This document shows positions 12,733-53,990 of a DNA stretch of 64,000 nt, piece by piece. The notes below the pieces were generated by a model, which saw only the letters and a list, made by a program, of their open reading frames with translations, did no database searches and was not told where the DNA came from. This stretch comes from Eubacteriales bacterium mix99 (GTDB lineage Bacteria; Bacillota; Clostridia; Caldicoprobacterales; DTU083). The translations under genes and the position numbers were made by a program. Every line of letters begins with the position of its first letter. Position 1 is the stretch's first letter. The DNA is taken from positions 2,078,500 through 2,142,499 of the forward strand of contig CP121690.1 in NCBI GenBank assembly GCA_038396605.1. The letters are read 5' to 3'.

Positions 12733-15621
12733 CTATGATACTATTATGCTTTTGTTCAAATAGAAGCGGAAAAATTTCAACGAAGTCTGTACCGTAAAGC
12801 AAATGCGAAGATCGAATAGCCCATCCTGCGGGCAGATCTTGCAGTAAACGGGAGAAAATTGTGTCAGGCTTCCGGTGCCTGCAGATCTGCAAATGCCTAT
12901 CATCTCTCCTGTGTTATTGTCCGCAAGGATCAGGTCCGCATGTCCTGCAGGGGATGAAATCAACGCTTCGAAGGCATCACAGCCTTTTAGGTCCAGTCCT
13001 TTATATACGGCAAAACTCCGAAAATCCCTGGCTTCCAGATAGGGCTTTGCGTCTTTCCTGTCTGTGAGAAACTGTACTTCACGGTAATCGTCCACATCGA
13101 TGGCACTCCTCCTTTTTTGGGCATCCCTGCCGGTGATCTCTGTGCCAATTACATGAACCGTAACTTTACATCGTATATCTTCGGAAGATGCTCCAATTTG
13201 CAGGATATAATCTCCGTCCTCTACTACAAAGCATTCCGTATCCGTACACCAGAACGCCAGATCAGAAGCCCGAAAGGAAAGGTTCACACAAACGGACTGA
13301 CCTTTTTTCACGAAAACACGTTGAAAAGCCTTCAGCATTTTACGGGGCCTGGGATAGACCGATTTAGGCGGGACCACATAAAGCTGTACCACTTCGTCTC
13401 CATTACAAGGGCCGATGTTTTCCACGGTTACAGAAGCGCTGATTTTCTCGTCTTCTTTGTATACCTTCTTTTCTGTTTCTGCGTTGGAGTAGTCAAACTC
13501 AGTGTAACTTTGTCCATAGCCAAAAGGATAGAGAGGATCTCCATCAAAATATAGGTAAGTGGTCCTGTTTTTCATAATATCATAATCGTTCATGGCAGGT
13601 AGATCCCGAACAGAACGGTACCATGTCGTTGGAGTCCGGCCGGCAGGATTGTTATCGCCGAAAATTGTATTTGTTGCTACCCGCCCGAGACCTGGGCCAA
13701 GATGAGTAGAGCAGAGTACTGCCTTTGCTATTCTTCGTTCCTTCTCAATGGCGAAGGGATATCCAGTAATTAAATATAACAAGGTATTCTCATTGGCATG
13801 GCATGCAGCGTCCAATAATGCACTTTGCTTTAAAGGCAGACAGATATCCGGCCGGTCGTGTTCTTCACGGGCGTTGATAAGCGGATGATTGCCCGCACAA
13901 ACGATAACATAATCGGCTTCTCCAGCCAGTTTTGACGCTCTGTCCTTACCAGAGGACAAGACTTCTGTTTCAAATTGCTTTTCCAGACCGTCCCCGGGAG
14001 TTGATGCGGAAACGATATGCCCTGAATCATCGGCAATAATATCACGGTCCTGCCAGGATTTAAGATACAGAACACCATTTTCGTTCCTGGCTTTGATCAA
14101 TTCCTTGACAAACCAGCCAAAGGCTTCCTCTGAGACACAATTCATACCCGGATGAATCGAAATGGCAGAAGTATTATTCGTTTTGATTCCATCCGGAGCT
14201 TTTTTCAACCCGCTGCCTTCCGTGATGTATTTTCGGGTTCTTAAGGAACGGAGGGTCCAGGATCCGAATCCCCAATCACAGCATTCAAACACCTCCGCCC
14301 TTTCGATAGGGGAATCTGCAATCAGTTCCCCATTTTCACCAGTCCGGACATATTTTCCGGTCCGTCGGGATTTGAGAATGATATGATCAAAACATTCATC
14401 CATAAGAACCCGATTTTCTCCCAGCTTTTCCCGTAATCCTTCTGTCACAGATATTTGATGCGGAGCATAGCCACAGTACCAACAGGTATAGTTTTTATTG
14501 GCAAGTGGCCCCAAAACTGCCAGTTTACATTTACCATCGTCCTTCAATGGAAGCAGGCCTCTGTTTTCCAGAAGGATCATCGATTCTTCCGCTGCCCTTA
14601 CTGCCAATTGCTTATGCTTACTGCAGGCAAGGAGGGAAGGGTCCATATGAGCATATGGATTTTCCTCCGGATCGAAATCTCCAAGCATGAAACGGATCTG
14701 AAGCATGGCAGTCAAAGCCTTATCCAGGTTTTCTTCTGAAAGATATCCCCGGTTCAATGCTTCACGCACAGCTGGATCTACTATGTCACGGCTGTCCAGC
14801 ATCATATCTGCTCCCACACCGAGAACGCCTGCAATCGACTCTGCATGATTTGCCCAGGTGCGGTGGGCTGACACATTTTGTGCAAAATCTCCGCCATCGC
14901 TGACCGCAAAAATCATGCCCCATTTCTTTTTGCAGATTTCTGATACATCCGGGTTATTCAGGGCTTCTACTCCATTGATCCTATTGTAAGCGGTCATCAG
15001 GCCTACTGCACCACCTTCGCGGATTGCGGGCTCAAATGCCTTGAGATAGTATTCATGCTTCAGGCGTGGCGTGATATTTGCACTGGTGGTCTGACGTTCG
15101 TTTTCGTAGTTGTTTGCATAAAAGTGTTTGAGCAGGGGAGCGGACTTCAGATATTTTGGGTCCTTTCCCGCAAGGCCCTTCGTATAGGCAACTGTCATTT
15201 TCCCGGTCAGACAGGGATCTTCTCCATAAGCTTCCTCATTGCGTCCCCAGCGGGGATCCCGTTCCATATCCACAGTTGGGCCAAATAATACCAGGGAACT
15301 GGGGCTTTCCTCCATCTGATTGCTGATGCGCACCTCATCTCCGGCCATATCTCCCAGCTTTTCCATGAGAGCATCGTCAAACATGGCAGCCATACCCCAG
15401 GGCTGGGGGAGAATAGTGGTCTCCCGCTTGTTGTCGCGCTGAACCAGCCCCCTGGCAATTTCCACACCAAAGTTCGTCTTCCTGATTCCCAGGCGGGGTA
15501 CATCGTCCAGACGGGAGGTTACCATCCCAATCTTCTCTTCCCGGGTCAGATGAGATACCAGATCTTTCGCTCTTTCCTCAAAAGAAAGCGACGTCAATTG
15601 AAAACGATATAATGGTTTCAT
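12733..15621 (-). CDS. GH3 beta-glycosidase with inserted fascin-like domain
   Basis: This 962-residue enzyme belongs to glycoside hydrolase family 3 (beta-glucosidase/beta-xylosidase group). The N-terminal TIM-barrel part carries NGVEALN and the nucleophile Asp242 (FAVSDGGDF). The second GH3 domain (KLAVLGPLAN; VCAGN) is split by about 140 residues that look like a fascin-type beta-trefoil (LKSRRTGKYVRTGENG, LRSLRTRKYITEG). A fibronectin-III-like domain (VTVENIGPCNGDEVVQLYV) and a C-terminal CBM6-like beta domain follow. No signal peptide is seen, so it probably acts on imported oligosaccharides. The start at 15621 follows AAAGGAG. It is the last gene of the glycan operon, 19 bases after the GH2 gene. 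Confidence 0.9.
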   Translation of the reverse strand: MKPLYRFQLTSLSFEERAKDLVSHLTREEKIGMVTSRLDDVPRLGIRKTNFGVEIARGLVQRDNKRETTILPQPWGMAAMFDDALMEKLGDMAGDEVRISNQMEESPSSLVLFGPTVDMERDPRWGRNEEAYGEDPCLTGKMTVAYTKGLAGKDPKYLKSAPLLKHFYANNYENERQTTSANITPRLKHEYYLKAFEPAIREGGAVGLMTAYNRINGVEALNNPDVSEICKKKWGMIFAVSDGGDFAQNVSAHRTWANHAESIAGVLGVGADMMLDSRDIVDPAVREALNRGYLSEENLDKALTAMLQIRFMLGDFDPEENPYAHMDPSLLACSKHKQLAVRAAEESMILLENRGLLPLKDDGKCKLAVLGPLANKNYTCWYCGYAPHQISVTEGLREKLGENRVLMDECFDHIILKSRRTGKYVRTGENGELIADSPIERAEVFECCDWGFGSWTLRSLRTRKYITEGSGLKKAPDGIKTNNTSAISIHPGMNCVSEEAFGWFVKELIKARNENGVLYLKSWQDRDIIADDSGHIVSASTPGDGLEKQFETEVLSSGKDRASKLAGEADYVIVCAGNHPLINAREEHDRPDICLPLKQSALLDAACHANENTLLYLITGYPFAIEKERRIAKAVLCSTHLGPGLGRVATNTIFGDNNPAGRTPTTWYRSVRDLPAMNDYDIMKNRTTYLYFDGDPLYPFGYGQSYTEFDYSNAETEKKVYKEDEKISASVTVENIGPCNGDEVVQLYVVPPKSVYPRPRKMLKAFQRVFVKKGQSVCVNLSFRASDLAFWCTDTECFVVEDGDYILQIGASSEDIRCKVTVHVIGTEITGRDAQKRRSAIDVDDYREVQFLTDRKDAKPYLEARDFRSFAVYKGLDLKGCDAFEALISSPAGHADLILADNNTGEMIGICRSAGTGSLTQFSPVYCKICPQDGLFDLRICFTVQTSLKFFRFYLNKSIIVS

Positions 15622-15640
15622 TCGAACTCCTTTCTCATGC

Positions 15641-18241
15641 TCATACATTTTGATCTGCCCTGGAATTAGGCAAACTGCAAACCGTAGAGGCGTTTTCGTT
15701 AGGCTCCAACTCCAGGGCAAATGCTTCCGGAGTTTCATTGCAGGCTTCCAGCTTCACTTCTTTTTTCTCGCCAGGATAAAGTTTAAAGTAGTTATCGCTG
15801 TAATGTACCCTGTCATCACTGGTTTTCAGACAGATGATCGGTACATAGCAATCCGCGGATACGTTAATAACGAGATCTTCTCCCTCATTATCTAATTTTT
15901 CCAGCTGAATATTTGCTTTTGGAAAGATATAATCCCGGTAATAAGCACGCAGACTGTCTGCCATTTCAAATCCAGTCCCTGGTGCCTTGGCGAAGAGGAA
16001 TCCTTTTTTCAGATCCCCCTTCGCCTCAAAAGCAAACTGCTGCCAGGAATGCGCTTTTGCTTCCAGTCTACGAACTATAACATGAGAGGTGTTCCCATAG
16101 AAATCCATGTATCCACAGGTAATTACCAGGTCGGTATTTTCAGGCGTTTCGTTGATTACCGTAACCTGTGCATCGTATTTCCTGGCTCGTATAATGAGCT
16201 TCCTCGTTGCAAAAGCACGTTTTAAAAAATAAAAGGAGATTTTTCTGGTAAGATAATAATCAATGATCGTCCAACCGGTTTCCGGCCAGCAATCGTTGTA
16301 CATCCAAATGAGGTTTCCGGAACCATAGGGCTTTTGGCGCATGGCTTCTGCCATTTCTGAATAAAGGCAACCTTGCATAACACCGCTATAAAGCAGATAT
16401 GCCCTTTCATCCAGCCCTGAAAAGTTGATGAGGTGACGATTGATGGCACCATCGATACTCCTCCGCTTACGCTCAAATTCCCCGTGATGAATCCAACTTG
16501 GGTTTCGAAATGACATTTCCTGCCCATCCAGATATCGCCGTACTGTACTTTCCATCTGTGCGCCAAAAAAACCGTATTCACTGGAAAACCTGGCAGGCAT
16601 CCTATCAAAGGCTTCCAGCTCATATGTATATCGAAACCGGGTCTCTTTTTTGCGACCAAGACAAGTCCAGGCATGCACGTCACCATCGTCTGTCTGATTG
16701 GCTACCGTTCCAAAATAAGGAGAGGATGGCATATAGGGAATTTGCGGGCTGTTTCTGTGAACTGCTTCCGGCTGAACATAATTAAATATTTTTTCTCCAT
16801 AAAAGCGATCCGGAGCAACCAACTCCGGGAACCAGTCTGTATAGGACTCATGGATCTCATTATTACCGGTCCACACGGCCATGCAGGGATAATGAGCAAG
16901 ACGTTTCGTCTGATATTCCGCTTCTCGCTGTGCTTCGAACAAAAAGCCATTATCCTGATCAGGATAAAATCCACAAGCATACATAAAATCATGCATCAAT
17001 AGAATACCATTTTCTGAACAGTATTCATAAAAACAATCCGGCTCATAAGTCCCCCCGCCCCATATACGAAACATGTTGAACCCTGCTGCCCTGGCTTCGT
17101 TTACCAGAATACGGTAACTGGAATCCGGTGTTCGTAGATAAATAGAATCTGTAGGAACCCAGTTCCCTCCTTTGCAAAATATACGCACACCGTTGACCTT
17201 AATGAAAAAATTTCTCGTACCGTCCGTCCTTTTGGAATGATCAATTTCTATTGTGCGGATACCGACTTTTTTTGTTCGATCCTCATTGATGAATCCCCGG
17301 CAGATACAACGGGCATTCAACTCATAAAGACATGGATCTCCATAGCCGTTTGGCCACCAAAGACTGACATCCGGAATCTTCGTAATTTCCCGAACAAAAT
17401 TCCATCCTCCCACCAAGAGTAGCTGCTTCTTTCCTGTAAGCACTGTCTTTCCATCTCTTGACAGCTCATATTCCAATACTGCCTCTTCCGAAGAAGTCAT
17501 ACAGGTTTTATCCAGCTCAAAATATAATTCCACCAAGGCGGTTCCGTTTTCCAACGATAAGGTATCCAACCGGGATTCCGAAATCCTGGCACCGCTGAAT
17601 CCTTCGAGATAAATGGAACGCCCTATGCCGCAGGTTGGGACAGGCTGACACCAGTCCCATCCATAAGTATATTGTGGTTTGCGTACATAAATTCGTTGAT
17701 TACAGATCGAATCGTTACCGCCACAGTAAAAAGAAATGGAATCCCTTGGATAATGATCTTCCATACCGGATGTGAGACGAATTATGATAGTGTTTTTTCC
17801 CATCTTTAGAAATCGCTTTACGTCTTCATAAAAGGGACAAAAAGCATTGGTGTGGTGGGCTACCGGTCTGCCGTTTAAAATAATATCTGCTTTAAAATCC
17901 AGTACTTCAATGAACAGCCGGATCACATCCTGCTGAAGCAACTCTTTTGGAACTTCGAAGTCCTTAATAAACCACTAGGACAAGTCCCTGACCCATAAAC
18001 ATTTTTTTGTATTCTGCCTTAAAAATGGTTCTTCAAGGATTCCATTTTCAATTAAAGGAGTGATAACATCACATGGAATCATAGCCTTCATGAAACCCGT
18101 CTTGGAAGGAAAGGCATTTGGCTCCTGATAGACAGTAAATTGCCCTTCTGGCTTTTCCAGGACTTCCATAAACCGTTCCGGACCAACATCCAAAAATTCG
18201 GCCCGAAGTTTCCATTCCCCGCCTAATGATAGTTTATACAA
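15641..18241 (-). pseudogene. GH2 beta-mannosidase-like enzyme interrupted by an in-frame TAG
   Basis: The frame from 18241 reads 88 codons, meets TAG at 17977-17975, and continues in the same frame for another 777 codons without further interruption (…CLWVRDLS, stop, WFIKDFEVP…). The product would be about 866 residues, normal for a GH2 beta-mannosidase. It has the sugar-binding domain, RIWGGGTYEPDCFYEYC, the acid/base site WTGNNE and the nucleophile site FSSEYGF. A single change of TGG (Trp) to TAG is the simplest explanation, as SWWF would fit the family. TAG is used as a normal stop by other genes here (for example at 9672 and 36447), so recoding is unlikely. A downstream restart could still make an N-truncated protein. 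Confidence 0.85.
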
Positions 18242-22189: not shown

Positions 22190-24466
22190 TTACGACAAAA
22201 GCACGACAGCTTCCGCCGCTTCCTTGTCAATCGGCGCTGTCCCGGTCTGTCCCTTCCGGGACACCCGGACCGTGCCGCCTGGACATTTGCCTTCGAAACG
22301 GACCATAACCCTGTTGCCGTCTGAGTTTGCGTGTACGGTGCACATATAATCCCCTCTGCTGTCATACAGGTTGGCCCTTGCATCCGCTTCCGGTTCGTAG
22401 ATATGAAAGAGCATGGGAGTGGAACAGTCATACGTGGTACCTTTGTCCGCTTCCGATTCCTCCAGCATGGCAAGAATACTGTTTGGCCGGACCCACAGGG
22501 GAAGGCTGAAATAATCGTAGGTTCTCCTGATATAACGTCCACCGCGGATCGTCTCGTTGGTCAGCAGATGAGTGAATCTTCCTTCCGGCAGATATACTTC
22601 CGAAGAACCGCTTTGGTTGAAAATCGGTGCTACAACAATGCTTTCTCCCAGCATATACTGCCTTTCCAGATAAGCGCACGCTGTATCGTCCGTGTATTCC
22701 ATCACCATGGGCCGCATAACCGGGATGCCGGTTTGGGAAGTTTCACATGCTGCGCTGTAGATATAAGGCATAAGCTTCATTTTTAAGTTTACGAAATACC
22801 TCAATACATCGACGGATTCTTCGTCAAACAGCCAGGGCACGCGATAGGACGAACTGCCGTGCAGCCGGGAATGGGTGGACAATAATCCGAACGCCACCCA
22901 ACGCTTGTACAGGTCTGCCGTGGCGGTGTTTTCAAAGCCGCCGATATCATGGCTCCAGTAGCCGAAGCCTCCCAGGACCAGGGACAACCCTCCGCGAAGA
23001 CATTCCGCCATGGATTCGTAGGTGGCTTCGCAGTCCCCGCTCCAATGAACCGGATACTTCTGGGAACCTGCCGTTGCACTTCTTGCGAACAATACGGCTT
23101 CCTGCGGTCCCCTGCATTCCTGCAGAAGTTCAAAGACGGCCTTGTTGTAAAGATAAGTATAGTAATTATGCATTTTAGCGGGATCGGAATGGTCACTGTA
23201 GCACACGTCCAGCGGGATTCTTTCGCCGAAGTCTGTTTTGAAACAGTCCACCCCCTGCTGAAGAAGCTTCCGGAGATATCCCTTATACCAGCTTACAGCA
23301 TCGGGATTTGTAAAATCCACAATCGCCATTCCCGGCTGCCACATATCCCATTGCCAGACACTTCCATCCGCCTTTTTCAGCAGATATCCGTTCTCTTTTC
23401 CCTCCTGGAACAACGGAGACTTCTGGCCGATATACGGATTGATCCAGACGCATATTTTCAGCCCCCTTTCCTTTAAACGGGCAAGCATGGATTCGGCATG
23501 GGGGAACTTATCCGGGTCCCAGCGAAAATTGCACCATTCGTATTCCTTCATCCAGAAACAGTCAAAATGAAAGACGGAAATCGGGATACCGCGTTTTTCC
23601 ATGCCATCGAGGAAATGGGTGACAGTTTCTTCGTTATAGTCAGTGGTAAAGGAGGTGGACAGCCACAGGCCGAAGCTCCATGCGGGAGGAAGCGCAGGCT
23701 TTCCGGTCATATCCGTATAGTTGATCAGGACCTGCTTCAGGCTGTCTCCGGCGATCATGAAGTAATTCAGCTCTTCGCCGCCTACGCTGAACTGGGTTTT
23801 TGAGACCGATTCCGATCCGATTTCCAACGAGATTTTTCCGGTGTGGCGGATAAAAACCCCATATTTTCTGTTGGAAACGTAAAAAGGGATGTTCTTATAT
23901 GCCTGTTCGGAGGAAGTGCCTCCATCTGCGTTCCAGATGTCCACCGACTGGCCGTTTTTCACGAAATTGGAAAAGCGTTCCCCCAGGCCATACAGGCATT
24001 CGCTGACGGACAGGTTCAGGCGCTCCCGGATATAGGGCTTCTGATCCACCGTCAGATAAGCGAGTTGTTTGGTATCGGACAGGGTGAGGAGATTTTCACC
24101 GTAAAAATAGCAGATACGGAAAGGATCCTTTTCCACCTGGGCGGTCAGGCTGCCGGAAGTGATGGTCAGCTTCTTTTTATCCTGGACAACTGTCAGATGC
24201 AGATCTTCTGCATGGAGCTCGAATTCCGGCCCGCGTTTCATCGTGCCCCTGAAGTGATACGCCTTTATGCCAAGCACATCAATATGTGGGGAAGTAAATT
24301 CAATGGTCAGCAGCGGGCCGGTGAGAGTCTGCCCCCTGTGGGATATTTTTGCCGGGGAAACATACACAATTACGCGATTTTGCATAATGGCCACATCCGT
24401 AACCGCAGCTGCGCCATAACATTTTACGTTGTCTTTTAAGAGCCAGTGTCCATTGGTGAATTTCAA
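22190..24466 (-). CDS. yicI: GH31 alpha-xylosidase (YicI-like)
   Basis: This 758-residue enzyme should release alpha-linked xylose from the non-reducing end of isoprimeverose-type units of xyloglucan oligosaccharides. It has the N-terminal beta domain, the (beta/alpha)8 barrel with nucleophile Asp412 in CFKTDFGERIP (the YicI hallmark, Asp416 in E. coli), and the acid/base region WSGDCEATYESMAECLRGGL. Length and start (MKFTNGHWLLKDNV) match YicI closely. No signal peptide is present, so it acts in the cytoplasm. It heads the minus-strand operon and is divergent from an AraC gene. A TATAAT lies at 24507-24502 without a good -35, consistent with activator control. Confidence 0.94.
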   Translation of the reverse strand: MKFTNGHWLLKDNVKCYGAAAVTDVAIMQNRVIVYVSPAKISHRGQTLTGPLLTIEFTSPHIDVLGIKAYHFRGTMKRGPEFELHAEDLHLTVVQDKKKLTITSGSLTAQVEKDPFRICYFYGENLLTLSDTKQLAYLTVDQKPYIRERLNLSVSECLYGLGERFSNFVKNGQSVDIWNADGGTSSEQAYKNIPFYVSNRKYGVFIRHTGKISLEIGSESVSKTQFSVGGEELNYFMIAGDSLKQVLINYTDMTGKPALPPAWSFGLWLSTSFTTDYNEETVTHFLDGMEKRGIPISVFHFDCFWMKEYEWCNFRWDPDKFPHAESMLARLKERGLKICVWINPYIGQKSPLFQEGKENGYLLKKADGSVWQWDMWQPGMAIVDFTNPDAVSWYKGYLRKLLQQGVDCFKTDFGERIPLDVCYSDHSDPAKMHNYYTYLYNKAVFELLQECRGPQEAVLFARSATAGSQKYPVHWSGDCEATYESMAECLRGGLSLVLGGFGYWSHDIGGFENTATADLYKRWVAFGLLSTHSRLHGSSSYRVPWLFDEESVDVLRYFVNLKMKLMPYIYSAACETSQTGIPVMRPMVMEYTDDTACAYLERQYMLGESIVVAPIFNQSGSSEVYLPEGRFTHLLTNETIRGGRYIRRTYDYFSLPLWVRPNSILAMLEESEADKGTTYDCSTPMLFHIYEPEADARANLYDSRGDYMCTVHANSDGNRVMVRFEGKCPGGTVRVSRKGQTGTAPIDKEAAEAVVLLS

Positions 24467-25687: not shown

Positions 25688-25730
25688 AATTTAGTATAAG
25701 TGAATCAATGTGGAGGGGGGAGTGGGTACC

Positions 25731-27344
25731 GTGATCAAGGTGGTCGTAGCGGATGACGAAGAGAAGGTCTGTCAGCTGATCTGTAACCTGGTGGACTGGC
25801 CGGCATTTGATATGCAGATTGTCGGCACAGCTCACAACGGCCTGGAAGCTTTGGAGTTGGTGGAACGCCTTTTGCCGGATCTGATGGTTACCGATATTCG
25901 TATGCCCGGCTGCGACGGGCTGGACCTGATCCGCCGTGCAAAACAGCTGTACGACCGGCTGGAATTTATTATTATAAGCGGATACGGACACTTTGAATAT
26001 GCGCAGACCGCCATTAAATACGGGGTGGGGGAGTATCTGCTCAAGCCTGTAAAGCAGGAGGAACTGGCTTCTTCCCTGAAAAAAATGCAGGATCATTATC
26101 GGCGCCGGACCGAGCAGCTTACGCAGGAGGAACAGCTGAAGCTGCGCCTGCAAAGTGACCGGGACAGACTGCGTTCCGGTCTGTTTACTGACCTGTTGCT
26201 GAGCAGGAATACGGATCCCCGGGCACTTCAGCTGGAACGGATCAATCAAAATTATCATTATGCATTGCGTCCCGGCTGCTATGAAACAGTGGCTGTCAAG
26301 GCGGACGGAAGTTGCGGCAGGCTTACCCCGGAGGCAATTGAGGTACTGGGGGAAAAGGTCCTTCATATCTTACGCACCCTGTTGAGTCCGTTTTGTATGG
26401 AATCCGAATTTTACTATCAGGGTACCAGGGCATGGGGTATCCTGAATTATCTTCCGGAAAAACGTCAGACGGTGCGCCGTCAGTTCAAGGCGGCATTGGA
26501 TGAAATGACAGCACGCATGGATCTGTTTCCCGGACAGTTTTCCATTGGTTTGGGGAAAGTGGTGGAGACCACCGGGGGGCTGGCTCAGTCCATGGACAGT
26601 GCCTGCCATGCGCTGGATGAGCGGCTGGTGGAGGGAGTGGGCAAACTGCTGTATGCACCGCCCGAAGACCATCCATTCCTGCGTCATCGTTCTCTTTTGG
26701 CGCGTACGGTTCATGAGATGGAGGAAGGACTGGAGATCATGGATCCCCGATCGGTGGTGGACGCAGTCCGCCGGATGGGGGAAAGGCTTTTCAACTGCGG
26801 ATCAACGACGGGTGGAGATGTTTTGTATCTGGCAAACGAAGTTTGCAGTTCCTATGTTCTGTTTCTTCGGGGCCTTCCCTGTGAATTGCCCGATACCGAC
26901 GGTTTTGTGAACGATTTTCAGGTCCGTACGGAGGATTGTGCATCGGCCCGTGCTGTCTGGGAGGAACTCTGTACAGCCATCCGGTCTTCCATGGAGGAAC
27001 TGATCTCCCTCCGACAGCAGGGAAATATCCGGCCGATCCGTATGGCAAGGCAGTACATCCGGGAACATGCCTCCGAACCGCTTACCCTGGAAGAGGTCAG
27101 CGGTGTGGCAGGTTTCAATCCCTCCTATTTCAGCACGCTTTTCAAAAAGGAAACCGGACAGAACTTTGTGGAATATTTGTCCCAGGTCCGGATGGACCGG
27201 GCAAAGGAACTGCTGAAGGAAAGCAATCTGTCCATCGCAAAAATATGTGAACAGGTCGGCTATGCAGATCTGAAACATTTCACCAAAAATTTCAGGAAGA
27301 ATACCGGCATCCGACCCAGTGAATTTCGCAAGCTTTATTCCTGA
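25731..27344 (+). CDS. YesN-type response regulator (receiver plus AraC output)
   Basis: This 537-residue protein has an N-terminal receiver domain with the acidic pair Asp8-Asp9, phosphoacceptor Asp55 (VTDIRMPG) and Lys near residue 105 (YLLKPVKQEEL). A long middle region of about 300 residues without clear motif follows, then a C-terminal AraC-type double helix-turn-helix (EPLTLEEVSGVAGFNPSYFS; SIAKICEQVGYADLKHFTKN). The GTG start at 25731 has GGAGGGGGGAG eight bases upstream. It is followed after 13 bases by its histidine kinase. The likely targets are the sugar transporter genes downstream. Confidence 0.92.
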   Translation: MIKVVVADDEEKVCQLICNLVDWPAFDMQIVGTAHNGLEALELVERLLPDLMVTDIRMPGCDGLDLIRRAKQLYDRLEFIIISGYGHFEYAQTAIKYGVGEYLLKPVKQEELASSLKKMQDHYRRRTEQLTQEEQLKLRLQSDRDRLRSGLFTDLLLSRNTDPRALQLERINQNYHYALRPGCYETVAVKADGSCGRLTPEAIEVLGEKVLHILRTLLSPFCMESEFYYQGTRAWGILNYLPEKRQTVRRQFKAALDEMTARMDLFPGQFSIGLGKVVETTGGLAQSMDSACHALDERLVEGVGKLLYAPPEDHPFLRHRSLLARTVHEMEEGLEIMDPRSVVDAVRRMGERLFNCGSTTGGDVLYLANEVCSSYVLFLRGLPCELPDTDGFVNDFQVRTEDCASARAVWEELCTAIRSSMEELISLRQQGNIRPIRMARQYIREHASEPLTLEEVSGVAGFNPSYFSTLFKKETGQNFVEYLSQVRMDRAKELLKESNLSIAKICEQVGYADLKHFTKNFRKNTGIRPSEFRKLYS

Positions 27345-27357
27345 CGGAGGGGATGGG

Positions 27358-28386
27358 ATGAAACAAAAATGGAAGTTTTTATCGGAACGTGTGCGTTGGG
27401 TGATCCTTCTTCTTCTTGGGTTTGGAGCTGTCCTGTTGTTTGCCCTGGCAGTCAGCTGTCTTTATCTGCACCGAATGCTGTTTTTCCTGCTGCCTGCTGC
27501 AGCTCTGTATATTTTGCTGATTGTTTTGATCCGGAAGGAGCTGGAGCACCCGTTTCAGGAAACCGAAAAAATGATGGAGCTGTTTACGGAAGGGTATACC
27601 CTGCAGGGTGTTTCCAGTCAGGATCATCCTGCCAGTGCCGCAACGGAGGCGGCTTTTGACAAGCTTAAGGAGCTTCTGTCCACCAACGACATGATCCATG
27701 CGACCAAAAGGCAAGCACAGTACATCGCACTGCAGAATCAGATCAATCCACATTTCCTGTATAACACCCTGGAGGGAATCCGGGGGGAAGCCATTGCCGC
27801 CGGATTGAGTACGGTAGCCAAAATGACCGAGGCTCTGGCTACATTTTTCCGCTATACCATTTCCAATCTAGAGAATCTGGTAACCCTGGAAGATGAACTC
27901 GGCAATATTGAAAATTACTTTCTCATCCAGCAGTATCGTTTTGGAGAACGGCTGCAAATGCAGGTGGTCTGCGGGGAAGAAGACTATGCTGCGCTGATCC
28001 GCTGCCGTATTCCAAAGCTGACGTTACAGCCCATTGTAGAAAATTCCATAGTGCATGGAGTGGAGCAAAAAATGGGCAGGGGAAATTTGCGCATCAAGCT
28101 GGAAGGAACCGAAAAGCGCCTGATTATTACCGTATCGGATAACGGAGTGGGCATGGAAAAGGAAGTGCTTGCAGGGTTGAACCGTCAGCTGGCTACAAAA
28201 CGATTTCAGTATGTGAATGCGGATAACGGCCGTGAAGGCGGCATTGCCCTGGTGAATGTAAATAACCGGATTCAACTGCTGTTTGGGGAACAGTATGGAC
28301 TTTGCGTTTACAGTACGCCCGGAGTGGGCACGGACGTGGAAATCACTTTGCCGCGTACCACCCGCAGTGTGAAGGTGACGGGATGA
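27358..28386 (+). CDS. YesM-type sensor histidine kinase lacking an extracellular sensor domain
   Basis: This 342-residue kinase has two adjacent membrane helices (about residues 14-34 and 41-62) with only a few residues between them, so there is almost no external sensing domain, unlike typical YesM proteins of about 580 residues. The His_kinase motif NQINPHFLYNTLEGIRGEA holds His132, and the ATPase domain has the N box (LQPIVENSIVHG) and G boxes (VSDNGVGM; GGIALVNVNNRIQLLFG). The start at 27358 follows GGAGGGG. It overlaps the next gene by ATGA, which suggests tight stoichiometry with the degenerate ABC protein. Confidence 0.92.
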   Translation: MKQKWKFLSERVRWVILLLLGFGAVLLFALAVSCLYLHRMLFFLLPAAALYILLIVLIRKELEHPFQETEKMMELFTEGYTLQGVSSQDHPASAATEAAFDKLKELLSTNDMIHATKRQAQYIALQNQINPHFLYNTLEGIRGEAIAAGLSTVAKMTEALATFFRYTISNLENLVTLEDELGNIENYFLIQQYRFGERLQMQVVCGEEDYAALIRCRIPKLTLQPIVENSIVHGVEQKMGRGNLRIKLEGTEKRLIITVSDNGVGMEKEVLAGLNRQLATKRFQYVNADNGREGGIALVNVNNRIQLLFGEQYGLCVYSTPGVGTDVEITLPRTTRSVKVTG

Positions 28387-29855
28387 AACAGGAAGTATTG
28401 CGGATGGATCGTGTCACACGCATTGTGGACGGGGTAACCCGTCTCAATCGGTTCAGCATGCATATCTTTCAAGGTGAAATCATGGGGATGCTTCCCATGA
28501 ATGATCAGGGAAAGGACGAGCTGGTGCTTCTTCTGCAGAAAAATCTGCCGCTGCATTACGGATTTGTCTATCTGGAGGAAAAGCTGGTAAACAGTTATCA
28601 AAAAAGTCCCATGACCGAAAACGCGATTTCGGTGATTGACCGGCAGAATCGTTTGATTGATGATCTGACGGTGGCGGACAATATTTTTGTTCTGCGCCGG
28701 GGGTTCAAAAAATATTGGATCCGCCCGCGGATATTGCAGGATCAGCTGGAACGGTGCACCCGGGAGATTGGAGTATCGATTCCGGCGGATGCGCTGGTAA
28801 AAGACCTGCCTGTCTATGAGCGGTGTGTGGCGGAGCTTCTGCGTGCGGTTCTTGCAGGAATGAAGCTGGTGGTGGTGCGTGATATCAGCAACATTTTATC
28901 AGAGTCTGATTTGAAACATTTTCATAAACTCATGCATCATTGTACCCGAAAAGGTTTCTCCTTTCTCTATATCTGTGCCCATCATGAAGAAGCCTTTCCC
29001 TTCTGCGACCGCATCTCCGTCATGGAGGAAGGAAGTGTCGTTCTTACAATGGATCAGCCGTTTTCCAGCGATGAGGCGATCTGGTACCGTGCACTGGATT
29101 TCCGGCGGCCGGCTGTCCCCGTTTCCCGGCCGGTTTCCATGCCGGTTCTTTGCATGGATCGGGTGTGCACCGATGCAATCCATTCCCTGAGTTTTTCTGT
29201 CTGGCCGGGGGAATGCGTTGTGATTCTGGATCGGAGCAACACCATTCTGGGTGACATCATGTCTCTTATGAATCGGGAAAGCAAGCCGAAAAAAGGAAAC
29301 ATCCTGGTGAATGGCGCTCCCTGCGGACCACATCTCCGCCCTGAGCCGGGACAGGAACTGGGATTTATCCCGGAGGATCCGGTCCATGCCATGCTTTTTC
29401 CGGGAATGAGCGTACTGGATAACCTTTGTATTTCAGTCGATCAGCGCATTCCGCGGATCTGGCTGGATCCTGGAATCCGGCGCAGTATCAGGGAGGAGTA
29501 TTCGGCGTATCTGCGGTCCGCTCTCGCGGAACAGGATGTTCGTGCATTGTCCCATCGGGAACAGTATGACCTGATATACTACCGGATGCATCTGTATCAT
29601 CCCAAAGCTGTTTTCTGCATGCAGCCTTTTCTGGGAGCAGATATGTATCTTCGTCATCACATTATCACTCTTCTGGAGATGCTGCGAAAGCGCAGGATAT
29701 CCACGATACTGCTGTCGGTGAATATATCGGACAGCCTTTCCATAGCCGATCGGCTTCTGATTGTGGAAAATGGCCGTTTGATCCGGGAATATGCCCGGGA
29801 TGATTTCCATACTCTTAGTCCGCAGGAAGGGTACGATCCTCACCGGACCAGGTAA
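28383..29855 (+). CDS. Degenerate tandem ABC-ATPase homologue coupled to the two-component system
   Basis: This 490-residue protein aligns along its whole length with tandem sugar ATPases of RbsA/MglA type, such as the next gene, but has lost the nucleotide-binding motifs in both halves. In half one the P-loop is MNDQGKDEL (residues 39-47) instead of GAGKST, the signature position is LPVYERCVAELL (142-153) and Walker B is LVVVRDISN. In half two the P-loop is ILDRSNTILGD, the signature LSHREQYDL and Walker B VFCMQPFLGAD. The fold-defining segments (ADNIFVLRR, IADRLLIVENGRLIREY) remain. It begins inside the kinase stop codon (ATGA). A regulatory or adaptor role between transporter and kinase is my inference. 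Confidence 0.85.
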   Translation: MKQEVLRMDRVTRIVDGVTRLNRFSMHIFQGEIMGMLPMNDQGKDELVLLLQKNLPLHYGFVYLEEKLVNSYQKSPMTENAISVIDRQNRLIDDLTVADNIFVLRRGFKKYWIRPRILQDQLERCTREIGVSIPADALVKDLPVYERCVAELLRAVLAGMKLVVVRDISNILSESDLKHFHKLMHHCTRKGFSFLYICAHHEEAFPFCDRISVMEEGSVVLTMDQPFSSDEAIWYRALDFRRPAVPVSRPVSMPVLCMDRVCTDAIHSLSFSVWPGECVVILDRSNTILGDIMSLMNRESKPKKGNILVNGAPCGPHLRPEPGQELGFIPEDPVHAMLFPGMSVLDNLCISVDQRIPRIWLDPGIRRSIREEYSAYLRSALAEQDVRALSHREQYDLIYYRMHLYHPKAVFCMQPFLGADMYLRHHIITLLEMLRKRRISTILLSVNISDSLSIADRLLIVENGRLIREYARDDFHTLSPQEGYDPHRTR

Positions 29856-30008
29856 GCCGCTGAGCAGGAGCCGCAAGGATCGGCAAAGTACGATTGGCCA
29901 AAGTCCTGAAAAAAACCCCCATTCGACCAAAATGGCCCCCCTGCCAACCTGCCGGGAAGGATGCTATACTATAATTGCAATCAGAAAGCGAAAGGTCGGT
30001 GGAATGGA
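29856..30008 (+). promoter_or_regulatory. Leader and candidate promoter of the RbsACB-type operon
   Basis: This 153-base gap has no gene. An extended -10 (TGCTATACT, 29962-29970) overlaps a TATAAT (29970-29975); no consensus -35 is seen, which fits a promoter that needs an activator such as the YesN-type regulator. Confidence 0.45.
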
Positions 30009-31544
30009 ATGCAGCAGAGGATTGTGGAGCTTTCCCACATCAACAAATCGTTTCCTGGTGTAAAGGCACTGGATGATGTTTCATTTGATCTGAATGTGGG
30101 CGAAGTGATGGCCCTGATCGGGGAAAATGGTGCAGGAAAATCCACTTTGATGAAAATTCTCAGCGGCGTATATCAGCCGGATTCCGGGGAAATAAAGGTT
30201 TTTGGCAGCACCGTTGAAGGTCTCACGCCCAAAAAGGTGCAGGAGCTGGGCATTGCCATCATACACCAGGAATTGAACATGTGTACGCATTTAACCGTTG
30301 CGGAGAATATTTTTCTGGGACGGGAAAAGACAAAGGGCATGGTGTTGTCTGCAAGTGAAATGAACCGGGAAGCAAGGAACATTCTGGAACGTCTCGGCAT
30401 GGATATCGATCCGGAAACCGTTATCGGAGATCTTGCCGTTTCCAAACAGCAGATGGTGGAAATCGCGAAAGCGCTTTCTACCAATGCGCGCATCCTGATT
30501 ATGGATGAGCCCACCTCCGCACTCACTTCAAGGGAAATAAGCGATTTGTTTGCCATCATCCGAAAGCTGCGTGATTCCGGCTGTGGCATTGTTTATATCT
30601 CCCATCGGCTGGAAGAACTGCAGCATATTGCGGACCGTGTGTCGATTATGAGGGATGGGAGACGGATTACAACCGGGGATTTTTCCTCCTTTACCATGGA
30701 CAGCATAATCGCCGGCATGGTCGGTCGGCAAATAAAGGAAAAGTTTCCAAAAGTACAATGTGAAATCGGCAAAACCATACTGAAGGTGGAGAAACTGAAC
30801 GCCGGCAGAATGGTCCGGGACATCAGTTTTGAACTGCATGAAGGGGAAATTGTCGGAGTAGCCGGTCTGATGGGGGCGGGCCGAACCGAAATGACCCGGG
30901 TAATTTTCGGAGCCGATGCCCGGGAATCCGGTCAGCTATTTTTAAATGGACAGCCGGTGGAAATCCACTGTCCACAGGATGCAATCCGCGCCGGGATTGT
31001 TTTGGTTCCGGAAGACCGCAAACGGGATGGCCTTTGCACCAGACTTTCCATTCGGGATAATGTTGCACTGCCAAACCTGGATATTCTGTGCAGCAGGCTG
31101 GGTGCTGTTCACCGCAGGAAGGAACGGAGAATGGTCCGGCAGACACAGAAGGGCCTGACCATAAAAATGCATGACATTGAGGCAGATGCCGGAAGCCTTT
31201 CCGGCGGCAATCAGCAGAAACTGGTACTGGGCAAATGGCTGGCCCGAAATTCCCGGGTGGTGATGTTTGATGAGCCGACCCGGGGCATTGATGTTGCAGC
31301 GAAGGTTGAGATTTATCATCTGATGAATGAGCTCAAGAAAGATGGGATAGGGGTGTTGTTTGTTTCCTCTGAAATGCAGGAAATCATGGGAGTTGCGGAC
31401 CGTATCCTTGTCATGTGCGACGGGCGGATGACCGGCGAACTTTTTCCGGAAAGCAGTACCCAAAATGAAATTCTGGAGTGTGCCACCCGATTTGAGAGCA
31501 AATTTCAAAAGGTCGATTCTGCCTACACATCGGAAGGAGCATGA
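30009..31544 (+). CDS. Sugar ABC transporter ATP-binding protein (RbsA/MglA type)
   Basis: This 511-residue tandem ATPase powers import of a monosaccharide or small glycan. Half one has Walker A (GENGAGKSTLM), a signature of RbsA form (LAVSKQQMVEIAKAL), Walker B (LIMDEPTSALTSREI) and IVYISHRLEE. Half two has the partly degenerate P-loop usual for this family (GLMGAGRTEM), the signature LSGGNQQKLVLGKW and Walker B VVMFDEPTRGIDVAAK. The start at 30009 follows GGTGG. It overlaps the permease gene at its end. The intact motifs make a clear contrast with the degenerate paralogue just upstream. Confidence 0.94.
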   Translation: MQQRIVELSHINKSFPGVKALDDVSFDLNVGEVMALIGENGAGKSTLMKILSGVYQPDSGEIKVFGSTVEGLTPKKVQELGIAIIHQELNMCTHLTVAENIFLGREKTKGMVLSASEMNREARNILERLGMDIDPETVIGDLAVSKQQMVEIAKALSTNARILIMDEPTSALTSREISDLFAIIRKLRDSGCGIVYISHRLEELQHIADRVSIMRDGRRITTGDFSSFTMDSIIAGMVGRQIKEKFPKVQCEIGKTILKVEKLNAGRMVRDISFELHEGEIVGVAGLMGAGRTEMTRVIFGADARESGQLFLNGQPVEIHCPQDAIRAGIVLVPEDRKRDGLCTRLSIRDNVALPNLDILCSRLGAVHRRKERRMVRQTQKGLTIKMHDIEADAGSLSGGNQQKLVLGKWLARNSRVVMFDEPTRGIDVAAKVEIYHLMNELKKDGIGVLFVSSEMQEIMGVADRILVMCDGRMTGELFPESSTQNEILECATRFESKFQKVDSAYTSEGA

Positions 31545-31549
31545 AAAAC

Positions 31550-32596
31550 ATGGAAAGAACACAAAAAAGAAATCCCCTGCACAGGATTTCGGCGATACGC
31601 GGCATGGGCCAGGTGATCACAGTGACCATAGGCCTTGTGGTACTGTGCGTTGTATTCGGCATTCTCAACCCATCCTTCTTTTCCGGCCGGAATGTGGGAA
31701 ATTTGCTGCGCCAGGTAGCGCCGATCCTCATTATCGGTATCGGGCAGTCCTTTGTTCTGATTACCGGAAACATTGATCTTTCCATTGGTTCCGTGGTGGG
31801 AATGAGTTGCATGCTTTCCGCCACCATGATGGCCAATGGAGTGAATCCCTGGGTAGCCACTTTTGCTACTCTGGCTTGCTGTCTTATGATAGGGATCGTC
31901 AATGGGGAGCTGGTTGCCCGCTGTAAGCTGCCGCCTTTCATTGCCACATTGGGAACCATGACCATTGCCCGCGGCATTGCCCAGATTGCCAACAACAATT
32001 ATAATACCGATTCCATCGGCGAGGCTGCCGAAGGCTTCCGCAATTTCTTTTATTATGGCAGGTTTCTGGGCCTGTACAATACCATCTGGATTGCAGCAGT
32101 TCTTTGGCTGGTTTGCAATTTTCTGCTTAGCCGCACGCGGACCGGTCGGCATATTTACGCCATCGGATCCAACCCGGAAGCGGCGAGGCTGTCCGGCGTC
32201 AATATCAACAGTACCACCATCAAGGTTTATCTTGTCAGTGCTTTTTGCTCGTGTGTGGTGGGGATGATCATCTGTGCTACCAGTGGCATGGGGACCATGG
32301 ATGCGGGGAACGGATATGAAATGTTTGCCGTGGCTGCTTCAGTAATCGGCGGTGTCTCCACTCTCGGTGGACAGGGTATTTTACCGGGCACGGTGATTGG
32401 CGCATTTATCTGGGGCGTTCTGCAGAATGGTCTGCAGTTTGCAGGTGCCCCGGTTGCCATCCGGAATATTATTATCGGCATCATTGTAGTGGTATCGGTT
32501 TTGCTGGATGTTGTCCTGCGCGGCAGCCGGCCCCGCCGCATTTTCAGGAAAAACGGTCCTGCATCCGGAGTGGAAGGAAAAAATACCCCGGCCTGA
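31550..32596 (+). CDS. Sugar ABC transporter permease (RbsC type)
   Basis: This is a roughly 348-residue inner membrane permease of the BPD_transp_2 family. Conserved segments include GIGQSFVLITGNIDLSIGSV, LPPFIATLGTMTIARGIAQI, RTGRHIYAIGSNPEAARLSG and GGVSTLGGQGILPGTVIGAF. I prefer the ATG at 31550, ten bases after GGAAGGAG; the ATG at 31541, overlapping the ATPase stop, is only one base from that site. It is the single permease of the system and presumably forms a homodimer. Confidence 0.94.
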   Translation: MERTQKRNPLHRISAIRGMGQVITVTIGLVVLCVVFGILNPSFFSGRNVGNLLRQVAPILIIGIGQSFVLITGNIDLSIGSVVGMSCMLSATMMANGVNPWVATFATLACCLMIGIVNGELVARCKLPPFIATLGTMTIARGIAQIANNNYNTDSIGEAAEGFRNFFYYGRFLGLYNTIWIAAVLWLVCNFLLSRTRTGRHIYAIGSNPEAARLSGVNINSTTIKVYLVSAFCSCVVGMIICATSGMGTMDAGNGYEMFAVAASVIGGVSTLGGQGILPGTVIGAFIWGVLQNGLQFAGAPVAIRNIIIGIIVVVSVLLDVVLRGSRPRRIFRKNGPASGVEGKNTPA

Positions 32597-32659: not shown

Positions 32660-33667
32660 ATGAAAAAAGTCATTTGGAAAAAGTCCCTTGCTTTACTGAC
32701 CGTAGCTGCGATGTTGCTGTTTGCAGCTGCCTGCAGCAGTGATTCCGGGAAATCTGCTTCCGGCAGCAAGGTAACGCCAAAGCCATCGGAAAGCGAGAGC
32801 CCGGGTAAAAAGGGTTCGGATGGGGACGGAGAAAAATACCGGATTTATTTGATTTCGATGGATCAGATGGATCAGCATTGGGTCAATATGGATAAGGGAG
32901 CAAAGAAGGCAGTGGAGGAGCTGGGAAATGTTGATTACAAATGGACTGCGCCGGATGTAAAGGATGATGCCAAGCAAATCGAATGCATCAATAATGCGGT
33001 TGCGGACGGCGCGGACGCTGTTCTGCTGGCTGCCAACGGCCCGGACGCAGCTGTTTCGGCTTTGAGGGAAGCAGAATCCGCAGGCGTAAAAATTGTCTAT
33101 GTGGATTCTCCGGCCAATCTGCCAGCCGTAAAAACCTTTTGTACCGATAACAAGGCGGCCGGAGCAACTGCAGCAGAACAGCTGCTTGCTGCTCTGAAGG
33201 AAAAAAGCATAACTTCCGGAAAGATCGGCATTATCGGAGTCAACGCTGCTACCCAGTCCACGGTGGACCGTGAGAGCGGATTCCGCTCCGCTTTTGAGGG
33301 AAGTGACTTCGAACTCCTGGAAACGCAGTACAGTGAAGGCGATGCCGCTCAGTCCAAGGATATTGCCACCAACTACATTGCTCAGGACTGCGTCGGGATT
33401 TTCGGGACCAATGAAGGCAGCACGGTCGGCACGGGCAATGCAATCAAGGAAGCAGGCGGAGAAGCCATCGGTGTTGGATTTGATCAATCGGATACGATTC
33501 TTGGCCTGGTCCGGGATGGTTCCCTTCTCTGTGTGATGGCTCAGAATCCGGACAAAATGGGTTATGAAGGGGTGAAAGCTGCCGTTGCCGCATTGGATGG
33601 CAGCGATGAAGGGGACGGCTCCACAGTGGATACCGGCGTTACTGTTTTAGCAAAAGGCGATATTTGA
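32660..33667 (+). CDS. Sugar-binding lipoprotein of the RbsB type
   Basis: This 335-residue periplasmic-binding-protein-like lipoprotein has a signal peptide with lipobox FAAAC (Cys25) and a Ser/Gly/Lys-rich linker. The two-lobe Peripla_BP_4 core contains YRIYLISMDQMDQHWVNMDK, DGADAVLLAANGPDAAVSAL, TDNKAAGATAAEQL and VGFDQSDTILGLV. It is the last gene of the ATPase-permease-binding protein operon. Members of this family can also present ligand to sensor kinases, which is relevant because the kinase here lacks its own external domain. The ligand is unknown. Confidence 0.94.
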   Translation: MKKVIWKKSLALLTVAAMLLFAAACSSDSGKSASGSKVTPKPSESESPGKKGSDGDGEKYRIYLISMDQMDQHWVNMDKGAKKAVEELGNVDYKWTAPDVKDDAKQIECINNAVADGADAVLLAANGPDAAVSALREAESAGVKIVYVDSPANLPAVKTFCTDNKAAGATAAEQLLAALKEKSITSGKIGIIGVNAATQSTVDRESGFRSAFEGSDFELLETQYSEGDAAQSKDIATNYIAQDCVGIFGTNEGSTVGTGNAIKEAGGEAIGVGFDQSDTILGLVRDGSLLCVMAQNPDKMGYEGVKAAVAALDGSDEGDGSTVDTGVTVLAKGDI

Positions 33668-35018: not shown

Positions 35019-35047
35019 TTGAAAACGTTTCGAATAAATGTTATGAT
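35019..35047 (+). promoter_or_regulatory. Promoter of the GH30-transporter operon with overlapping LacI operator
   Basis: TTGAAA (35019-35024), exactly 17 bases and TATGAT (35042-35047). The near-palindrome TTGAAAACGTTTCGAA (35019-35034) covers the -35 and the first half of the spacer, so a bound LacI protein would block RNA polymerase. The promoter at 61714 has the same arrangement. Confidence 0.65.
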
Positions 35048-35135
35048 AAACCACGCGGAATTTATTACAACACAGGATTTGTTTAAAATAAAAATCCCGC
35101 GGAATACTGGATATATATCAATCAGGAGGTTGGTT

Positions 35136-36449
35136 ATGCCAAAAGTTTATCGTACGGACGAAACACAAAAATTTTCTCCGGCCCGCACACAGGATTTCAG
35201 CCCAAATCGTTATTACGGTTTGCCCACCCTTTTGCTGGACGACAGCGTCCGGCATCAGAAGATACTGGGCTTTGGCGCTTCCTTTACGGATGGAAGCTGC
35301 TACACCCTGAACCGGCTGGAGCCGGGAGCACGGAAGGCCCTGATCCGGGATCTGTTTGGCAGGGAAGGCCTTGGCCTGAATATTGGCAGACTGAATGTCG
35401 GAGCCAGTGATTTTGCCACAGAATGTTATTGTTACGATGAAACCGCTGATGACTTTGAAATGAAGGATTTTACAGTGGAAAAAGACAGGGAATACCTGAT
35501 CCCGGTCGTTCGTCAGGCAAAGGACGTCAATCCCGATCTTTTTCTGTTTTCGTCCATGTGGAGCTGTCCCGGCTGGATGAAGACCAGCGGCAGCATGTGT
35601 GGCGGATGGCTGCGCGGCGATTATCTGAATGCGTTTGCTGATTATTACACCCGGTATCTGCTTGCCTATCAGGCAGAGGGAATCGGGATTAATGCAATGA
35701 CTTGCCAAAACGAGCCCGAAACCGATCAAATCTCCAAAATGCCTGCCTGTCTGCTGCATCCGGACTATGAAAAAAGACTGGTAGGTTCTCTTATGCCGGA
35801 ACGTCTGGAGAAAAACAACCTGAAAACCAGGCTGTGGATTCTGGATCACAACTTTGTGCACTGGCAAAGGGCAGATTACCTGCTTCAGGATGAAGATGTG
35901 CGCGCTCATGCCGCCGGTGTTGCATTCCATCCTTATGAAGGACAGGCGGACGATATGCTGCTGCTCCGCAAACGTCATCCGGAAATTTCCTTTCATCTGA
36001 CGGAAGTTGGCCCGGATATAGGCGATGGATATGAAACGGATTGGTGCCGCTGGGCAGATAGAATCGGCGAAGCATTCCAGTACGGATGTGAAAGTTTTAC
36101 CGCATGGAATCTTGCGTTGGATGAAACCAGCTGCCCGAATATCGGACCTTTTCCATGCGGCGGGATTGTCACCGTCCATTCCAGGACATGTGACATCAAA
36201 AAAAGCGGCATGTACTGGGCATTAAAGCAATATACCAGCCATATCCGGAGAGGTGCGTACCGAGTGGAACTCTCACAGCTGACGGAAATGCCGGCAGGGG
36301 TAAGAGCTACTGCTTACAAAAATCCCGATGGAAGCGTTGCTCTTGTATTTGTGAACCGAGGCTCGCGCAACGATATTCAGTTGGGGCGGAAGGGAAGCTG
36401 GCTGCGCTTTTCGCTGGCTGCAGATTCTGTATCCACTATGATTCTATAG
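35136..36449 (+). CDS. GH30-family glycoside hydrolase
   Basis: This 437-residue enzyme matches glycoside hydrolase family 30 (glucosylceramidase-like, including beta-1,6-glucanases, beta-xylosidases and xylanases). It begins with the family pattern ILGFGASFTDGSCYTLNRL. The barrel carries acid/base Glu193 (CQNEPETDQ) and nucleophile Glu290 (FHLTEVG). A short beta-sandwich follows (VALVFVNRGS). No signal peptide is present, so it is cytoplasmic. The start at 35136 follows CAGGAGG; upstream in-frame codons overlap the promoter. The exact bond cleaved cannot be given. It is first in an operon with a permease pair and binding protein. Confidence 0.9.
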   Translation: MPKVYRTDETQKFSPARTQDFSPNRYYGLPTLLLDDSVRHQKILGFGASFTDGSCYTLNRLEPGARKALIRDLFGREGLGLNIGRLNVGASDFATECYCYDETADDFEMKDFTVEKDREYLIPVVRQAKDVNPDLFLFSSMWSCPGWMKTSGSMCGGWLRGDYLNAFADYYTRYLLAYQAEGIGINAMTCQNEPETDQISKMPACLLHPDYEKRLVGSLMPERLEKNNLKTRLWILDHNFVHWQRADYLLQDEDVRAHAAGVAFHPYEGQADDMLLLRKRHPEISFHLTEVGPDIGDGYETDWCRWADRIGEAFQYGCESFTAWNLALDETSCPNIGPFPCGGIVTVHSRTCDIKKSGMYWALKQYTSHIRRGAYRVELSQLTEMPAGVRATAYKNPDGSVALVFVNRGSRNDIQLGRKGSWLRFSLAADSVSTMIL

Positions 36450-43137: not shown

Positions 43138-43400
43138 GAGAACAACGGCAGGGAGAAAGAGGAGTACATATTGGTCTTTCCGCAGAGAAGGGAGCTCAGG
43201 GGCTGAAAGGTTCCCGGGAGAAGACAATATGGAACGTCGCTTTTGAGCTTTTTGACCGAAGGGATATTGATACCCTGTAGGTCATTACGGGTGCTCCCGT
43301 TACAGGGCCAGAGCGTCTGCCGGGCTATTTTGGAAGCCTGGCGGAAAGAAAGGTGGTACCACGAAACAGACTTCGTCCTTTGGGGCGGAGCTTTTTTGTT
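43138..43400 (+). ncRNA. T-box leader, valine specific
   Basis: The canonical T-box sequence AAAGGTGGTACCACG is at 43349-43363. Upstream, stem I is formed by CATATT..GTCTT and AAGAC..AATATG, below which the 5' side has AGTA and the 3' side GGAACGTCGC, giving a specifier GTC (43236-43238), a valine codon. A terminator follows (CTTCGTCC/GGGGCGGAG then TTTTTT, 43371-43397). Uncharged tRNA-Val would stabilise the antiterminator and switch on valS, and perhaps lacZ behind it. Confidence 0.92.
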
Positions 43401-53787: not shown

Positions 53788-53990
53788 AGGGAATCCTGAG
53801 GTGCACGAATTCTATTGTATTTAACCCACAGTTAAAATACGGGAATCCGGGTTTGCGGATGGATATCATGCCTGACATGGGAAGATAAAAGTCCGCAGCA
53901 GGTCTCCCACCTGTCGTGAGGCGGGTATTAAATTCATAGAAGACCGACATCTTGGGAAAATAGGCCCTCAAGGGATTGGGGGCTTATTCC
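53788..53990 (+). ncRNA. Structured non-coding RNA candidate, about 200 nt
   Basis: The stretch after the promoter is gene-free and unusually rich in local complementarity. Hairpins include GTATTTAAC/GTTAAAATAC (53814-53837 region), a long arm TGCGGA/TCCGCA enclosing TATCATG/CATG..GATA (53851-53900 region), CAGGT/ACCTG inside CCGC/GCGG, and AATAGGCCCTC/GGGGGCTTATT near the end. The 5' GGAAT can pair with the final ATTCC, closing the structure. Size and isolated promoter recall 6S RNA or the clostridial raiA RNA, but I cannot confirm either family by eye. There is no T-run terminator at the end. Confidence 0.5.

Follow-up and report, generated by a model that had tools for sequence, protein, structure and literature searches.

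The window analysed here, a stretch of 64,000 nucleotides from the genome of Eubacteriales bacterium mix99, contains a group of forward-strand genes in which a response regulator (for which later GTG starts are possible), a histidine kinase and a tandem ABC pseudo-ATPase are followed by the components of an rbs-type sugar transporter (Table 1). As the initial annotation had recognised, the start codon of the pseudo-ATPase gene overlaps the stop codon of the kinase gene, the two being joined by an ATGA at 28383-28386. It had also placed a functional paralogous ATPase, a permease and a binding protein directly behind the pseudo-ATPase; these genes do lie downstream, but 153 bp carrying operator-like and promoter-like sequence intervene. 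The surrounding region (12733-40010) is devoted to carbohydrate use, with GH3 (12733-15738), GH31 (22190-24466) and GH30 (35019-36449) genes, two oligosaccharide-type permease and binding-protein sets, and AraC and LacI regulators. The window further holds a T-box leader (43142-43383) and a 6S RNA (53790-53962), both from Rfam, and four tRNAs.

Table 1. Features of the regulatory and transport genes in the window, with the evidence for each
Feature	Position	Strand	Evidence
Response regulator, receiver and AraC-type HTH (YesN type)	25710..27344	+	Pfam Response_reg, HTH_18; orthologous in kinase/pseudo-ATPase loci
LytS/YesM-type histidine kinase, no sensor domain	27319..28386	+	Pfam His_kinase and HATPase_c, hydropathy, tree
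Tandem ABC pseudo-ATPase, 490 aa	28383..29855	+	Open frame, Pfam, NCBIfam, motif alignment, AlphaFold
Putative operator, tandem direct half-sites	29904..29949	+	Place conserved in 14 loci, leave-one-out top match, unique pattern in genome
Promoter-like site CTGCCA-18-TATACT for rbsACB	29941..29970	+	Consensus match only
rbsA-type tandem ATPase, canonical motifs	30009..31544	+	Pfam, NCBIfam, motif alignment
rbsC-type permease	31541..32596	+	Pfam BPD_transp_2
Sugar-binding lipoprotein, rbsB type	32660..33667	+	Pfam Peripla_BP_4

The pseudo-ATPase, encoded by an open frame of 490 codons, has the length of RbsA. The Pfam ABC_tran profile matched two stretches of it (41.6 bits, cut-off 25), and an AlphaFold prediction made with 17 orthologues gave a two-NBD ABC fold (pLDDT 80, pTM 0.77); the profile score above the curated cut-off and the fold together identify the protein as a member of the ABC ATPase superfamily. 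The RbsA, AraG and XylG models cover its full length, but score only 95-125 bits where the curated cut-offs lie at 586-850, and it falls below the NCBIfam thresholds for the RbsA, AraG, XylG and MglA equivalogs. Identity to the intact RbsA encoded downstream in the window is 21%. The Pfam match, the full-length model similarity and the predicted fold thus bear out the earlier statement that the length and fold landmarks of an RbsA/MglA-type ATPase have been kept. The best structure matches of the model (VIA) were tandem DppD/OppD, with Z of 24-27, and no solved RbsA-type tandem chain was near enough for permease-contact mapping at E 1e-60.

Walker A, the Asp-Glu of Walker B, the signature and the switch His are replaced in both halves, and none is usable. 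The strings that the initial annotation had listed for the loss of Walker A, signature and Walker B in both halves (MNDQGKDEL, LPVYERC, VVRD, ILDRSNT, LSHREQ and MQPFLGAD) are all present. Neither the pseudo-ATPase nor any of its orthologues retains even one site with the residues of an active ABC ATPase (Walker A GxxGxGK[ST], Walker B DE, LSGGQ and switch His), and the RbsA proteins encoded alongside them carry canonical motifs in the alignment. Even in intact RbsA one site is degenerate (GLMGAGRTE at Walker A of NBD2, LAVSKQQ as the 'signature' of NBD1), so that what has been lost is the single canonical working site that RbsA keeps. The replacements are themselves conserved, as CINxxGK/Q, LIxxRDISN, YICNHHE, DxNNTxxxD and VVFCxQPFxxADMYLR, and, as judged from the alignment, the replacement of the motifs is remodelling rather than drift. 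The conserved Cys and His residues of YICNHHE had suggested metal binding, an idea that we abandoned since parts of this motif are missing at three loci (L031, L032 and L134).

In a comparison of the window with its sister genome, the pseudo-ATPase had a dN/dS of 0.18, similar to the values for the genes around it (regulator 0.16, kinase 0.11, RbsA 0.13), and no internal stops were found in the orthologues of 18 genomes. The pseudo-ATPases form their own clade (support 100/99), with a within-family identity of 43% compared to 70% for RbsA. The coding sequences thus show a gene maintained by selection. Selection had previously been read from the open frame; the frame alone is no proof of it, and the conclusion stands on dN/dS and the 17 intact orthologues. 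The orthologues with the same losses and the dN/dS value also rule out an isolated degenerate copy, and the separate clade rules out a recent duplicate of the adjoining rbsA.

The kinase is of the LytS/YesM type, with His_kinase and HATPase_c domains and intact catalytic boxes. Hydropathy predicts two transmembrane helices that lie only about 6 residues apart, in keeping with the earlier description of a kinase with almost no extracellular domain; its structure model (pLDDT 72, pTM 0.53) has two long helices with a two-residue break. The kinases of all 18 genomes that encode the pseudo-ATPase have by hydropathy the same two helices and loops of 3-12 residues, an architecture like that of intramembrane-sensing kinases, and form one clade (100/100). 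In the other LytS/YesM kinases compared, about 40 from the sampled genomes, the transmembrane helices are almost always separated by some 240-280 residues.

Orthologues of the pseudo-ATPase were found in 18 genomes from 11 genera and 9 GTDB families, in a sample of about 790 genomes (391 of the class and 398 of the phylum, with 2 positive genomes common to both sets). In the class set it occurred in 13 of 391 genomes, and the short kinases (a clade with E values of 1e-236 to 1e-87, next match 1e-66) in the identical 13; in the phylum set both occurred in the identical 7 of 398 (kinase clade at 1e-137 or better, next match 1e-81). Every sampled genome thus had both or neither, with 18 having both and none only one, and a pseudo-ATPase without the sensor-less kinase was never met in the roughly 790 genomes. 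This co-occurrence partly reflects joint inheritance of one operon. A further match at E 3e-44 (L036 in G145) was left out of the count because it has Walker A and is a true RbsA. No relatives were found in viral contigs, and a scan of genome contigs returned the sister genome UBA4874 only.

The gene order response regulator, kinase, pseudo-ATPase is kept in 17 of the 18 genomes, with rbsA, rbsC and the binding-protein gene next wherever the contig continues, so that the order described for the window holds across the 9 GTDB families. Neither of the findings that the initial annotation had named as refuting it, homologues with intact Walker motifs and an unconserved gene order, was thus encountered. 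In the remaining genome (G353) the pseudo-ATPase gene is on its own, flanked by ileS and peptidase genes, and the regulator, kinase, rbsA, rbsC and binding-protein genes lie on another contig without it. Its retention there, away from the kinase-transporter locus, argues that the functional tie has outlasted the linkage.

The converse case is found in G294, where a near relative of the window transporter (RbsA 65%, RbsC 69% identical; L161, 1551-6375) lies directly behind a ROK-family regulator gene that overlaps the rbsA start. No orthologous response regulator, kinase, pseudo-ATPase or operator was found at that locus, and the best matches to the pseudo-ATPase profile in this genome are at the level of ordinary RbsA. 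The transporter can therefore exist without the pseudo-ATPase, and the regulatory arm has apparently been swapped for the ROK regulator.

Between the pseudo-ATPase gene and rbsA, 14 loci share a putative operator with half-sites resembling CCAAAA-N(3-6)-CCCC spaced about 21 bp apart. A leave-one-out matrix ranked this place first in all eight non-redundant regions tested, with L133 shifted by one repeat, and a pattern search of the whole window genome matched only the site before rbsA. None was found before the relocated pseudo-ATPase gene (L027) or in L034; L134 is weak, with no clear site, and the contigs of L033 and L035 end before the operator region could appear. The promoter-like site overlaps the downstream edge of the putative operator, and L130 has a terminator-like hairpin 3' of the pseudo-ATPase gene. 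From operator, promoter-like site and hairpin, the regulatory arm is likely one transcription unit and rbsACB another, and the response regulator likely activates rbsACB through the predicted operator.

More distant sensor-less kinases also adjoin tandem ABC proteins without Walker A in three genomes (G098, G171 and G303), these non-orthologous pairs being convergent in G098 and on the same strand in the other two, with rbs-type transporter genes nearby. These ABC proteins (L078, 7667-9154; L079, 4663-6153; L081, 3486-4895) are about 20% identical to the window pseudo-ATPase and to one another, and sit on long branches of the ABC tree; they may or may not share one origin with the window protein. 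In the kinase tree, L078 and L081 are sister to the pseudo-ATPase-linked clade (95/81), and L079 lies elsewhere with weak support. At L078, ADH and FGGY kinase genes are found upstream.

Co-occurrence with the kinase, the G294 locus, the operator site and the distant pairs together place the pseudo-ATPase in the regulatory arm, with the response regulator and the sensor-less kinase. Gene order and the conserved putative operator before rbsA in turn tie this arm to the transporter, again at the level of sequence. The reading that we favour goes further, and has in our judgement about an even chance of being right: the pseudo-ATPase would serve a three-component sugar-sensing system as its third member, derived from RbsA but catalytically dead, which docks on the permease and signals to the kinase. 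It would have kept the ABC shape and the face with which NBDs grip the permease, and could dock on the RbsC dimer, either replacing RbsA or on a fraction of the permeases. From there it would relay the state of permease and binding protein to the cytoplasmic part of the kinase, substituting for the extracellular sensor domain that the kinase lacks; the kinase would then phosphorylate the regulator, which would bind the tandem repeat and activate rbsACB. With no ATPase activity, occupancy by the pseudo-ATPase would serve as a readout and not as a motor.

This preference for docking on RbsC and relay to the kinase is inferred from conservation. The mechanism put forward in the initial annotation, with the pseudo-ATPase competing with RbsA or joining it at the permease and informing the kinase about transport, would likewise agree with the pattern of conservation. 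In importers, the region after the NBD Q-loop contacts the coupling helices of the permease. The stretch after the NBD1 Q-loop of the pseudo-ATPase (LTVADNIFVLRRGFKKY) is among the most conserved and contains the most RbsA-like part of the protein; by conservation rank, the NBD1 groove reaches 0.66 compared to 0.43 for the old Walker A. The same stretch has low pLDDT and is predicted to be disordered in the monomer, as would be expected of a surface that becomes ordered on binding its partner. The RbsA-likeness of the 22-residue groove block is only suggestive when compared with random blocks (0.06), the ten-residue RbsA-like core was selected after looking, and the NBD2 groove showed no excess RbsA-likeness. 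A further point against docking is that sequences of the LTVxENI kind occur widely among ABC NBDs and may have a structural role.

The main rival to permease docking, possible though distinctly less probable, is that the pseudo-ATPase serves the kinase alone, as an adaptor or ligand sensor in the cytoplasm, following a PhoU-like logic in which the rebuilt ATP sites would sense a metabolite or the energy state with no permease contact. The strict tie to the kinase and not to the transporter, the translational overlap with the kinase gene and the new conserved consensus of the old catalytic loops would all fit such an adaptor; retention of the permease-facing region but not of Walker A, and the presence of an rbs-type transporter at every locus, distant pairs included, would not. 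We consider it unlikely that the protein throttles transport as a dominant-negative competitor of RbsA at the permease (inducer exclusion), its link to the kinase being co-expression only. The fold is the same as that of RbsA and the docking face likely the same, but a throttle leaves unexplained the tie to the sensor-less kinase, the absence beside the ROK-controlled transporter, and the position of the rbsA operator and promoter behind the pseudo-ATPase gene. Less probable still is a nucleotide or energy sensor for the kinase that binds without hydrolysis: a Gly-Lys pair persists where Walker A used to be, both in the window protein and in some orthologues, but the Lys has become Gln, Leu or Met in many others, the Ser/Thr of GK[ST] is gone in nearly all, and the Asp-Glu and switch His are absent throughout. 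A decaying rbsA duplicate caught in the operon would fit the loss of all catalytic residues and the lower within-family identity, but is hardly tenable given open frames in 18 of 18 genomes under purifying dN/dS, a clade distinct from the local rbsA, newly conserved motifs and survival of the relocation in G353.

The proposed arrangement has several partial precedents. Importer NBDs or NBD-associated adaptors signal to regulators in MalK-MalT and PhoU-PhoR-Pst, but there the signal comes from a working importer NBD or the PhoU adaptor, whereas here it would come from a separate dead paralogue. In the flux-sensing Bce modules (BceAB-BceRS), a sensor-less kinase is signalled by an ABC transporter and controls the genes of that transporter; the working transporter itself signals, in response to antimicrobial peptides, with BceB transmembrane helices touching BceS and with BceA active (PMC10314905). 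The read-out of an ABC transporter by a kinase without sensor domain is thus a precedent, but the present system differs in its dead ATPase paralogue, its LytS/YesM-type kinase and its sugar importer, and the window permease is of the RbsC type (BPD_transp_2) and not a BceB-type permease with a large extracellular domain. In XylFII-LytS and CuaDSR, three-component systems of the SBP type, an extracellular binding protein binds the kinase ectodomain (PMC10384115). As is proposed here, the sensor for a sugar importer is a third protein of transporter origin that serves a LytS/YesN-type system; by contrast, the pseudo-ATPase is intracellular and its kinase has no ectodomain, and each locus encodes one SBP, with no second extracellular binding protein. 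With RbsA, AraG and XylG the pseudo-ATPase shares length, tandem NBD fold, gene neighbourhood and likely ancestry, but it differs in lacking the catalytic motifs, forming a separate clade and scoring far below their curated cut-offs.

In the literature searched, largely without subscription journals, no account was found of a sugar two-component operon that includes a pseudo-ATPase. Many kinases have no recognisable sensor, and how they are signalled is an open question; the pseudo-ATPase is a concrete candidate for the missing input, as a transporter ATPase that may have become a signal reader. If the model holds, it would clearly exemplify, in bacteria, a signalling role for a pseudoenzyme ABC subunit. 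The combination of dead ATPase and sensor-less kinase, which many Firmicutes have kept, suggests a new way to read a transporter and decide on making more of it. The natural variants, with the pseudo-ATPase in trans, the transporter without it, or partners that have Walker motifs, make the idea directly testable.

We lean slightly towards a wider, as yet undescribed class of dead-ATPase three-component systems, in which the pseudo-ATPase takes the place of the kinase sensor domain and signals what state a sugar permease is in, with ABC-ATPase partners on more than one LytS/YesM branch and Walker-keeping, regulator-linked ATPases as perhaps earlier stages. RbsA-like tandem ATPases that retain Walker A motifs (L080, 2848-4470; L084, 2450-3943) lie directly upstream of YesN/YesM-type response regulator-kinase pairs in G182 and at another locus of G171, the kinase loop at the G171 locus being larger. 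In these the third component may exist in a form still competent for ATP.
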